Positions 31,864 to 49,573 of a stretch of DNA of 64,000 bases are shown in pieces. The notes under the pieces are model-generated. The model saw only the letters and a program-made list of their open reading frames with translations. It searched no databases and had not been told where the DNA came from. The DNA lies in assembly GCA_007026445.1 (NCBI GenBank), contig VDMD01000002.1, positions 2,976,001 through 3,040,000 of the forward strand, read 5' to 3'. This DNA is from Schizophyllum amplum. Its lineage: Eukaryota; Basidiomycota; Agaricomycetes; Agaricales; Schizophyllaceae. Position numbers and translations under genes: made by a program. Every line of letters starts with the position of its first letter. The first letter of the stretch is position 1.

Positions 31864-33402
31864 ATGTCCGACGAGGAGGTCGTCGTGAACAAGAACAAAG
31901 CTCACAGAAAGGATAAACGTATGCGCTTAATATACTGGATAAAGCCTAGTCTCTGACAGTACCCATCCAGCGTGGGATACTGATGATATCGACCAGTGAG
32001 CTCAAGCCCGCACGTTTTCCTTGCGATTGACCGCTTACGCGCCGGCCCAGTGTGAGCATACGGATAGCATCCTTGATCAATAATGCAGTTGAATCTTAGC
32101 ACGATTCAGTGGAAAATCGACCCATTCACCGCCGCCGACAACAAGGGCGGCACCTTCTTCGAGGAGTCTTCGTTCGCCACCCTCTTCCCCAAGTACCGAG
32201 AAAAGTACTTGCGGGAGGTATGGGGCGCGGTCACTAGAGCATTGGACAATCATGTGCGTGTTCTGTTCATTGTATTATCTTCTTCACGCTAACGATGCGT
32301 CAGGGTGTAGCATGTACACTCGATTTGGTCCACGGTTCCATGTCTGTACGCACAACGCGCAAGACGTACGATCCCTACATCATTCTGAAAGCCCGCGATA
32401 TGGTCAAGCTGCTTGCCCGTGGTGTGACCGTTGCGCAAGCAGTCAAGATCCTCGACGACAACATGGCCTGCGATATCATAAAAATTGGCAACCTTGTACG
32501 GAATAAGGAGCGCTTTGTCAAGCGAAGGCAGCGCATCATTGGACCCGATGGAAGCACATTGAAGGTGCGCATATATGCGTGGATAGAGGAAGCGCACTGC
32601 AGCTAAGCTTTCTTGCAGGCGATCGAATTGCTGACACAGTGCTATGTTCTCGTGCAAGGTAGCACTGTCAGCGTGATGGGGCCGTACAAATCCTTGAAAG
32701 AGGTTCGGCGAATTGTCCTCGACTGTATGAAGAACATCCATCCTATCTACCGAATAAAAGTGCGCACACATGCATCCCGTCAACTCGCAACTGACCTTCT
32801 TGCAGGAGCTCATGATCCGCCGCGAGCTCGCCAAGGATCCAAAGCTAGCTACGGAGTCCTGGGACCGCTTCTTGCCGGCTTTCCGCAAGCGCCATCTCAA
32901 GACGAGCGAGAAGACGGCGAAGAAGAATGAGCGGCAGGCGACGAAGGCGGAGGCGCGCGCAGCGGCTGGCATCGAGCCGGAGAAGAAGAAGGAGAAGAAG
33001 GTGTATACACCTTTCCCGCCACCACAGCAGCCTCGCAAGGTCGACTTGCAGCTCGAGTCCGGCGAGTACTTCCTCAAGCCGCGCGAGCGAGAGGCGAAGG
33101 AGGCGCAGAAGCGGAAGGAGAAGGTGCGTTCTAGAGTGTTAGACATCTCTATAAGTGCCGTGTTGATGTGCGGACAGCAAATGGAGGTTGCGAGCCAGCG
33201 GCAAGCGGAGCGGGCGGGTGCATACGTGGCACCTGTGGAGGAGGCCGCACCGACCGTGGAGGAGAAGAGGAAAAGGAAGCGGCACGCCGAGGATGGGCAG
33301 GAGAAGAAGACGAAGAAGACGAGGGCTACGGACGAGCCGTCTGCCGACGCTGCGGAGACAAAGAAAAAGAAGAAAAAGCACAGGCAGGAGGAGGACGACT
33401 GA
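31864..33402 (+). CDS. KRR1: Krr1, small-subunit processome KH-domain protein, with a 1-nt exon
   Basis: Exons: 31864-31918, 31971-31995, 32051 (one base), 32110-32253, 32304-32564, 32619-32759, 32806-33123, 33178-33402, giving 389 residues. Highly conserved blocks are [29 protein letters not shown], then [29 protein letters not shown] and [20 protein letters not shown]. They span the two KH-like folds that bind pre-rRNA. The tail after residue 330 is Lys-rich and nucleolar in type. Krr1 is needed for 18S rRNA processing and 40S assembly. Codon 27 (His) is split CA|T across a single-nucleotide exon between canonical introns of 55 and 58 nt. A model without this exon must use an acceptor at 32099, inserting three extra residues (HTIQ instead of H) into a conserved block. 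Confidence 0.93.
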
Positions 33403-33550
33403 GCGTTTGGGGTGCGGACGACAGTGAGTCTACGATTGCAGTGCTCACGGATTATGTACTGCTACCATATATGTTATGCTATGCTACTCGCGGCGATATT
33501 ACAGGTATACAACTTCTACATTGGTATGTGGCCAGGCCAGGCTCTGTATG

Positions 33551-47697: not shown

Positions 47698-47741
47698 AGG
47701 GCAGAGGGCCGATTGTCGAAGTTTCGTTCATTCATCTCGTA

Positions 47742-49573
47742 ATGCTTGGTGTCGCTTGCTTGTCGCTCCTTTCCCTCGCAGGCCTATCCTCGGCGCAGGA
47801 CCTCGGTGTGCCGTTGAGCTGGAGGGTTCGTAGGCATCGTTGACTTACTCGACGTCGGTGTAACACAGCTTGCAGGAGTTCTCCAACGATCGTTCGAGGG
47901 ATGAGCGCATCTCTATCTCGCAAGCTGCGATCGATGCTATCCTGCCTCAGCTGGATACGGGGAACGGGGAGTTCAGCGGCATCGGCTACTGGCAGTCGGG
48001 CAATGTATGGTGTGTAACGCGGTCTCGTGATCTTGATTTGTGCTGTACTTGACGAGTATTTGCTTCACAGGGCCTCGATGGCGAATGAGGACCATCGTGC
48101 CGGGACAACTGTCTACCAGGGTCAAGTTGTTGACCAGCTGAACAATGTCTTCAACTTGCACGCAAACTACGATCAGTGGGGGTAAGTATATCACTTGCTG
48201 TGTTGACTGAGCGAGATGCTAACAACCCTCCCCTAGGGTGCGCACAAGTTCCTGCTCATAATCTCAAACCTGCCAACTAACGTTCACCTTCGTCTCTAGT
48301 TCAACGACGACGCCATGTACGTATGCTGACTTCCGGAAACTATACTTGATATCTGACATCGGTGGTTAGGTGGTGGGCTACGGCGGCATACTACGCCTAT
48401 CGCGCGTACGGTGACAGCACCCTCCTCAACTACGCTATCACGACATGGGAGCACATCAGCACCTTGTACGTGACATCCTAGTGCTTCATGCAACACCCTG
48501 GCTCAAAGGACATCATTCAGTGCTATCTCCCAGGACAACGCCAACTCGGGCAGCATCCCGACCAAGAACTTCGGGTTCCAGGGCTCCTGTGACGGTCGTG
48601 CGTATATATTTGCGCGTTCTCGAACTGTTTTGCTCATCTGATGCAGAGTCTATGGTTGGCGGTGTCTTCTGGGTATGTATCAAGAGTATCGAGGGTTTGG
48701 TTGTACTGACGGTCCCATAGAAAGTCGACGCTTCAGACAACGGCATCAACGGTATCACGACCAGGTACGCTTCCATCGACTGGGATCTTTGCTGCCTTGC
48801 GTTGACTGAATTTACTTCGGCAGCCTGTACTCTACGCTTTCCGCGTTCCTCGGCGAGGCCACGGGCGAGTCGCGCTTCATTGATGCGGCAATCCGGAGTG
48901 CGAACTGGATCAAGAACGTCAACATGAACAGCGACTACCTCGTCTTGGACACGGTTCACGCGACCGATTGCACGCGCTCGCCGGACAACTGGTAAAAGGC
49001 TCCCTTGGACCATACAGTACGCTGTGCTCACCTCGTCTCCAGGCTGTTCACGTACAACTCGGGCAAGTACCTCGAGGGTTTGAACGTGCTGGCGGACGTG
49101 ACGGGCGATGACGCCTGGAAGTCGCTGGCTGTGAACGTCGCGAATGCAGCTATGAAGACTAGCGCATGGCAGGGTAAGCTCTACCGATTTTTACTATCTA
49201 TCCCACCGAGTGACAGTGTTCTTAGGCAGCAACGGTGTGATCACGGAGGGCGCGTCTCCCAACGAGAACAACGACGGCGTCGGCTTCAAGTCCATCCTCC
49301 TTCGTGCTCTCGACGAGACTTACAACCGCCGTGGGGGCGACAACGAATCTCTTCGGATTCTCATCCACTCGTATGTTTGTGTGCAGGTAAGTGGATCTGT
49401 TCTTCGCGTACTGCCGGTGCTGAGTCCTTCGCTCATAGTTCAATGCACTCCTGGAGCTTGCTGCGGATGGCAACAACTACTCGAGCGCGTGGGCGGGTCC
49501 GGCGCAGGGCTTCACGACCTGGGGCCAGATGGCGGCGCTCGATGTGTTCGTGGCTGCTATTCACGCTGCGTGA
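47742..49573 (+). CDS. Secreted GH76 alpha-1,6-mannanase-like protein with a 1-nt exon
   Basis: Thirteen exons close to 394 residues: 47742-47825, 47876-48009, 48071-48181, 48237 (one base), 48300-48316 (17 nt), 48370-48465, 48521-48597, 48647-48672, 48721-48764, 48824-48991, 49043-49173, 49226-49386, 49439-49573. A signal peptide (MLGVACLSLLSLAGLSSAQ) precedes an (alpha/alpha)6 GH76 domain: SGIGYWQSGNVWASMANED, NYDQWGFNDDAMWWATAAYY and FLGEATGESRFIDAA. The FNDD segment (residues 111-114) corresponds to the family's catalytic Asp pair. GH76 enzymes act on alpha-1,6-mannan and, as Dcw1/Dfg5 relatives, on cell-wall GPI-mannoprotein attachment. No GPI signal is visible here. Gly110 is split GG|G over the one-base exon. 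Confidence 0.9.

Follow-up and report, generated by a model that had tools for sequence, protein, structure and literature searches.

Results

Three genes with a candidate one-base exon

The window analysed here is a 64,000-nucleotide (nt) stretch of DNA (C112:2976001-3040000) from assembly G000 (49.65 Mb, 309 contigs) of Schizophyllum amplum, an agaric of the Schizophyllaceae. Within 17 kb of it lie the genes for KRR1, a protein of the small-subunit processome, for a serine carboxypeptidase of family S10, and for a GH76 endo-1,6-alpha-mannanase. We built the exon chains of the three genes by hand (Table 1), and in each of them one base is required between two canonical GT...AG introns of 52-62 nt. 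At all three sites this base is preceded by AG and followed by GT, which are the ends of two complete, canonical introns whose lengths are normal, and the conserved reading frame is broken if the base is omitted. A first-pass annotation of the DNA had placed a 1-nt exon between full-length canonical introns in these three genes and had stated that the AG-N-GT sites restore highly conserved residues. All three AG-N-GT sites were found where it had put them, and the residues restored are His-Trp in KRR1, Pro in the carboxypeptidase and Gly-Phe in the mannanase.

Table 1. Features of the window discussed in the text, with positions counted from its first base.
Feature	Position	Strand	Evidence
KRR1 gene (small-subunit processome), 8 exons including the one-base exon	31864..33402	+	389-aa model, P0001, Pfam
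KRR1 intron 5' of the one-base exon, 55 nt, GTGAGC...CAG	31996..32050	+	
KRR1 one-base exon T, third base of His27 (CA^T^TGG)	32051..32051	+	DDIDHWKI in P0001
KRR1 intron 3' of the one-base exon, 58 nt, GTGAGC...CAG	32052..32109	+	
S10 serine carboxypeptidase gene (modelled part, to ~39116)	39116..41173	-	Pfam PF00450, GenBank P0121
S10 intron 5' of the one-base exon, 59 nt, GTAAGT...CAG	40435..40493	-	
S10 one-base exon C, middle base of the Pro codon in FLDQPVGVG (C^C^G)	40434..40434	-	
S10 intron 3' of the one-base exon, 52 nt, GTGAGT...TAG	40382..40433	-	
GH76 endo-1,6-alpha-mannanase gene, 13 exons	47742..49573	+	P0241, Pfam PF03663
GH76 intron 5' of the one-base exon, 55 nt, GTAAGT...TAG	48182..48236	+	
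GH76 one-base exon G, third base of the Gly codon (GG^G^TTC)	48237..48237	+	QWGFNDD in P0241
GH76 intron 3' of the one-base exon, 62 nt, GTGCGC...TAG	48238..48299	+	
GH76 17-nt micro-exon adjoining the one-base-exon intron (FNDDAM)	48300..48316	+	
Kinesin 12-nt micro-exon	52973..52984	+	read by eye
Kinesin 19-nt micro-exon (P-loop GSGKSYS)	53030..53048	+	read by eye
Kinesin 11-nt micro-exon	53098..53108	+	read by eye

Protein records and conserved residues at the junctions

The KRR1 model of 389 amino acids (aa), which includes the T, is 100% identical over its full length to the protein record P0001. The source tag of this record, lgn, is one that we take to denote assembled sequencing runs (our assumption), and homologue rows sourced solely from lgn or jgi are referred to below as RNA-type rows, a class that we assigned ourselves. 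In the model, the spliced junction including the one-base exon reads GACCATTGGAAA. The His-Trp pair requires CA+T+TGG, and reading through instead yields CAG TGA. Pfam cannot settle the KRR1 case because the site lies outside the two domains of the protein (KH_KRR1_1st and KH_KRR1_2nd), and the score is 111 bits with or without the base. Another KRR1 record, P0058, begins at Met88, as it would if it came from a transcript with a mis-spliced or intron-retaining 5' part.

For GH76, the record P0241 (GenBank and lgn, 14 contigs) contains NYDQWGFNDD, which requires the G, and the model junction including this base is TGGGGGTTCAAC. Elsewhere in the gene, our hand joint at 48594/48647 leaves the model one residue shorter than P0241. 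On contig C190, a paralogue is organised in the same way at this codon, GTGAGT..TAG-C-GTGCGT..AG, with introns of 51 and 53 nt and GGC in place of GGG (GG^C^TAT). This exon was found by a self-trained gene finder (see below) that had not been trained on that gene, and the introns around it match their counterparts in the window gene no more closely than random pairs of introns match each other. The second one-base exon that the program predicted in the C190 paralogue is spurious: a single intron of 136 nt fits the frame by eye, and the intron limit of the program was 130 nt. A degenerate, frame-shifted GH76 copy on a further contig (C242:113615-113782, L019) carries GG in place of the AG acceptor of the one-base exon and represents a natural loss mutant.

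The S10 site is supported by comparison with homologues and by the Pfam score, and the exon is to that extent a predicted one. FLDQP[VIA]GVG[FY] is present in 115 of the 120 rows listed (the best 120 of 1,478 matches). Pro is replaced in only three rows, all of them Schizophyllum models and each with a different replacement, namely RK in the GenBank model of S. amplum (P0121, DQRKVG, obtained with a single intron of 108 nt), and RRLS and RN in two models of S. commune (P0122, DQRRLSVG; P0123, DQRNVG). The two other rows off the motif, P0200 and P0220, have an insert after Pro and a deletion. The one-base version, with the junction CAACCGGTCGGC in the model, scores 315.6 bits against Pfam Peptidase_S10 compared with 303.0 for the GenBank model, a gain of 12.6. 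P0121 bears out the expectation of the first-pass annotation that gene models go wrong at such exons. P0122 and P0123 also carry a second odd insert, at NGG^PGASS (KSFRLV and KSIQPP), which suggests another tiny or missed exon there; this junction is broken in 5 of 109 annotated S10 rows.

Chance, detection and frequency

How often an AG-N-GT split arises by chance was estimated by fixing the donor and the acceptor of each gap and dinucleotide-shuffling the interior 20,000 times, with introns of at least 42 nt. Any such split appeared in 7.4% (KRR1), 6.3% (GH76) and 8.2% (S10) of the shuffles, and one of the quality observed in 0.04%, 0 of 20,000 and 0.02%, respectively.

The self-trained gene finder, applied to 144 kb of contiguous sequence made up of the window and its flanks, predicted 46 genes with 216 introns and 170 internal exons. 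Introns of 45-59 nt make up 191 of the 216, and nine more measure 60-64 nt. Among the internal exons are three of 1 nt, those of KRR1, S10 and GH76, one of 2 nt (at C112:2966184, L039) and none of 3-5 nt; given that the three genes were in the first seed set of the program, its prediction of them is not independent. The later splice-site matrices were built without the introns that border exons of less than 32 nt. The detector recovered 86 of 90 planted one-base exons, and in 90 controls with a broken frame it invented three one-base exons and four of 2-4 nt.

With this sensitivity, 85 internal exons were predicted in the 80 kb that flank the window, and none of them was one base long. The same held for all 182 internal exons of 30 P450 loci, a set in which near-identical contigs and overlapping loci mean that some genes are counted repeatedly. 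These counts do not support a pervasive occurrence of one-base exons in unselected genes. Predicted one-base exons recur in the S. amplum genome yet are not pervasive, and three of them within 17 kb is partly the luck of the window chosen. The sample of 144 kb and 30 P450 loci is too small for a genome-wide rate.

Annotation breakage in other fungi

Homologue tables were made from the best 120 of 7,029 (KRR1), 1,478 (S10) and 245 (GH76) matches, of which 25, 10 and 16 rows, respectively, are RNA-type. We counted insertions and deletions (indels) that lie no more than one residue away from an intron position of S. amplum, separately for annotated and RNA-type rows. The count for the S10 site (108/109) was left out as an artefact of the odd reference P0121, and 23 RNA-type KRR1 rows remained once the reference row and P0058, which does not span the site, had been set aside. 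At the one-base junction of KRR1, indels occur in 24 of 95 annotated rows and in 0 of 23 RNA-type rows, while the five ordinary introns of the gene have 1, 0, 1, 0 and 1 among the same 95. The one-base junction of GH76 is disrupted in 41 of 103 annotated rows and in 0 of 16 RNA-type rows (15 of 16 are clean under a stricter motif). Indels are also found in 26 of 103 annotated rows at the distal end of the neighbouring 17-nt exon, and in 0 to 10 of 103 at the remaining introns.

Broken KRR1 models come from Suillus, Pisolithus, Phanerochaete, Gelatoporia, Termitomyces, Heterobasidion, Thelephora and others. The simplest reading, based on the breakage of protein models and not on the DNA of these species, is that many Agaricomycetes have at this junction an element beyond the reach of gene finders, for which a one-base exon is the natural candidate. 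Many fungal gene models are likely to be wrong at the KRR1 and GH76 sites.

Other features of the window and the assembly

The kinesin exons of 12, 19 and 11 nt listed in the first-pass annotation are confirmed, and joined by eye they read AYGQTGSGKSYSMMGYG. The P-loop of this kinesin (GQTGSGKSYSMMG) is spread across the three micro-exons (window 52973-53108). A 93-nt tRNA-Leu gene (CAG) occupies window positions 35940-36032. Matches of equal score on C57/C44, C35/C199, C253/C270/C17 and C114/C185/C186 suggest that second haplotypes have been kept in the assembly.

Discussion

We consider it highly probable that KRR1, the S10 carboxypeptidase and GH76 each keep a single base in their mRNA as a one-base exon, most likely through two-step splicing by intron definition. 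The presence of the base in mRNA is strongly, if indirectly, favoured for KRR1 and GH76 by P0001 and P0241, which are likely to be RNA-derived records. From the annotation breakage described above we infer an old site, common to many mushroom-forming fungi, in KRR1 and perhaps also in GH76.

Several observations weigh against this reading. The evidence for the mRNA consists of protein records rather than RNA reads, and the contig behind P0001, at 4,328 nt, is long enough to contain introns; other lgn and jgi contigs, though not all, are too short for this (e.g. P0021, 381 aa on 1,222 nt). Beyond the three genes of the window, no one-base exon was counted among 267 other predicted internal exons (85 and 182). 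In 40 of the 95 annotated KRR1 rows, Gln replaces His (His in 53), which may be real variation or an annotation artefact; the RNA-type rows have His in 24 of 24. Some KRR1 inserts of other species start with VS or VR, as if the donor followed a complete His codon, and the exact element may thus differ from species to species. The annotation hot spot of GH76 is confounded by the 17-nt exon next to it. As to S10, GenBank joins the junction differently (P0121), no RNA-type record of the S. amplum gene is found among the 120 rows listed, twelve single introns (four with a GT donor) that insert 1 to 23 residues also keep the frame, and the paralogue on contig C35, the one copy compared, has an ordinary intron of 53 nt between Gln and Pro.

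That each gap is instead one long intron with other splice sites (104 nt in KRR1, 108 nt in S10), leaving a small insertion in the protein, strikes us as improbable. We enumerated such introns with a GT or GC donor, an AG acceptor, the frame kept, no stop, and exon ends shifted by up to 12 nt into the flanking exons. Solutions do exist: the GenBank model P0121 is among the twelve found for S10, and KRR1 has a single one (104 nt), which adds Thr-Ile-Gln after His (DIDH-TIQ-WKI). However, P0001 reads HWKI and not HTIQWKI. All twelve S10 solutions lose the Pro that is otherwise so well conserved, and none gives DQPVG; the DQRKVG of P0121 forfeits the Pfam gain mentioned above, and at this very junction the two models of S. 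commune differ. GH76 has no single-intron solution in the range searched, and introns of at least 100 nt are rare (5 of 216 predicted).

We attach very little weight to assembly errors, by which each gap would have lost a base nearby and its AG-N-GT would be there by coincidence. Only one match to the KRR1 stretch exists in the assembly, but splits of the observed quality occurred in at most 0.04% of the shuffles, at three sites, the gaps are twice the usual length of an intron, and the diverged GH76 paralogue on another contig is arranged alike. A stwintron, in which an inner intron interrupts a splice signal of an outer one and everything is removed, would resemble what is seen here, given that two introns abut in a fungal gap of about 115 nt and that stwintrons are known from ascomycetes. 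It is nevertheless most improbable: complete removal shifts the frame at all three sites, and the second donors are intact from the outset. Nor would a [D1,2] stwintron rebuild its donor: at the three sites the first intron is preceded by A, C or G and followed by T, C or G, and at none of them do the two bases give GT. Decaying pseudogenes, in which disruptions of the frame mean nothing, are represented by the GH76 copy on C242, which is degenerate and has lost the acceptor of the one-base exon. We think it very unlikely that the window genes belong to this class, as the reading frame stays open across every modelled exon of KRR1 and GH76 and across the modelled part of S10, and the protein records of KRR1 and GH76 are intact.

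If the base is retained as proposed, the two introns would be recognised one by one, through intron definition, and excised in two successive splicing steps. The U1 site comprises donor positions -3 to +6 and, at the second donor, includes the acceptor AG of the first intron. U1 bound there and the factors bound to that acceptor would therefore overlap on AG-N-GT, so that the two introns are presumably not handled simultaneously. Because both introns are complete and of standard size, either should be recognisable alone and either may go first; once one is gone, the other would be an ordinary short intron. The first-pass annotation had considered stepwise intron definition plausible, which is likely and already in print, and had added that the second donor arises only through the first splice. 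The latter idea is not supported: each of the two donors is already whole before splicing, and the score of the second hardly changes, and in no consistent direction, when intron 1 is removed (KRR1, 4.50 to 4.95; GH76, 5.96 to 5.08; S10, 5.57 to 5.26). Exon definition is implausible for one base, a point already made by Guo and Liu (2015; PMC4674806), who put forward intron definition with successive removal of the introns for a plant gene.

As for origin, no more than 28 of 11,175 intron pairs are as alike as the two introns flanking the S10 exon (window 40382-40493), and this level of likeness is reached by 1 of 121 neighbouring intron pairs of other genes. This hints at local intron duplication as the source of the S10 site, which we regard as a lead. 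Tandem duplication as a general origin was rejected: the intron pairs of KRR1 and GH76 are not alike (fraction 0.48 each), and that of the GH76 paralogue is only weakly so (0.066). The first-pass annotation had called one-base exons a recurrent, lineage-level feature of this genome. This view gains from the exon in the C190 paralogue and from the breakage of KRR1 and GH76 homologues, which suggests old, shared sites; it loses from the ordinary intron in the C35 copy of S10 and from the finding that such exons are not pervasive. A wider scenario, to which we would give slightly less than an even chance, is that the KRR1 exon is ancient in Agaricomycetes and has been kept since before the mushroom orders split, that a sizeable share of KRR1 and GH76 models is wrong because gene finders do not model it, and that new exons such as that of S10 may arise by local duplication of short introns.

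If the proposed exons are real, the presence of several of them in unrelated genes of one fungus, with one also in a diverged paralogue, would make the one-base exon a repeated outcome rather than a curiosity in intron-rich genomes with short introns. How two splicing events share an AG-N-GT, and in which order the introns are removed, could then be tested in a tractable organism. The sites also pinpoint conserved genes whose database models are likely to be wrong.

Exons of this size have been described before. A single-nucleotide exon was reported in APC11 of Arabidopsis (Guo and Liu, 2015), and 1-nt microexons occur in APC11 and VPS55 across land plants (PMC8831610). With these, the S. amplum sites have in common an AG-N-GT between canonical introns, a base essential for the frame, its absence from annotation, possibly a long conservation and, for APC11, the proposal of stepwise intron definition. 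The exon of APC11 lies in an interval of 422 nt and was proved by cDNA and minigenes, whereas the exons proposed for S. amplum, a basidiomycete, lie between introns of 52-62 nt, number three in 17 kb and are predicted from sequence comparison and protein records. A further case comes from the CYP621A P450 genes of Fusarium (Nelson and Syed, 2026; PMC12940212), whose single-nucleotide exon is described by the authors as the first of a fungal gene and the second overall. Here too a conserved motif is restored in a fungus, gene models are wrong, and a gap of 139 nt is split by AG-G-GT. CYP621A belongs to an ascomycete and one gene family and comes with RNA reads; the S. amplum sites belong to a basidiomycete and to three unrelated families, one of them a ribosome-assembly gene, their base is T, C or G (C in the paralogue), and none was seen in the P450 loci examined. 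The P450 genes of Phanerochaete, also a basidiomycete, have tiny exons between introns of 45-55 bp, as S. amplum does, but the shortest exon reported in the available text of PMC1184071 is 6 bp, with none of one base there. A literature search confined to open-licence papers found no nuclear one-base exon of a basidiomycete among the matches listed.

Stwintrons likewise consist of two abutting fungal introns that are spliced consecutively; unlike at the S. amplum sites, no base is kept and the outer donor comes into being through the first splice. At zero-length exons, recursive splicing proceeds by successive removal at an adjoining AG and GT, while in S. amplum one base is kept and the introns are short. 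A one-base exon has also been reported from placozoan mitochondria. One-base exons are already known in plants and in Fusarium, and what sets the S. amplum sites apart is their number, the gene families in which they lie and their likely age.

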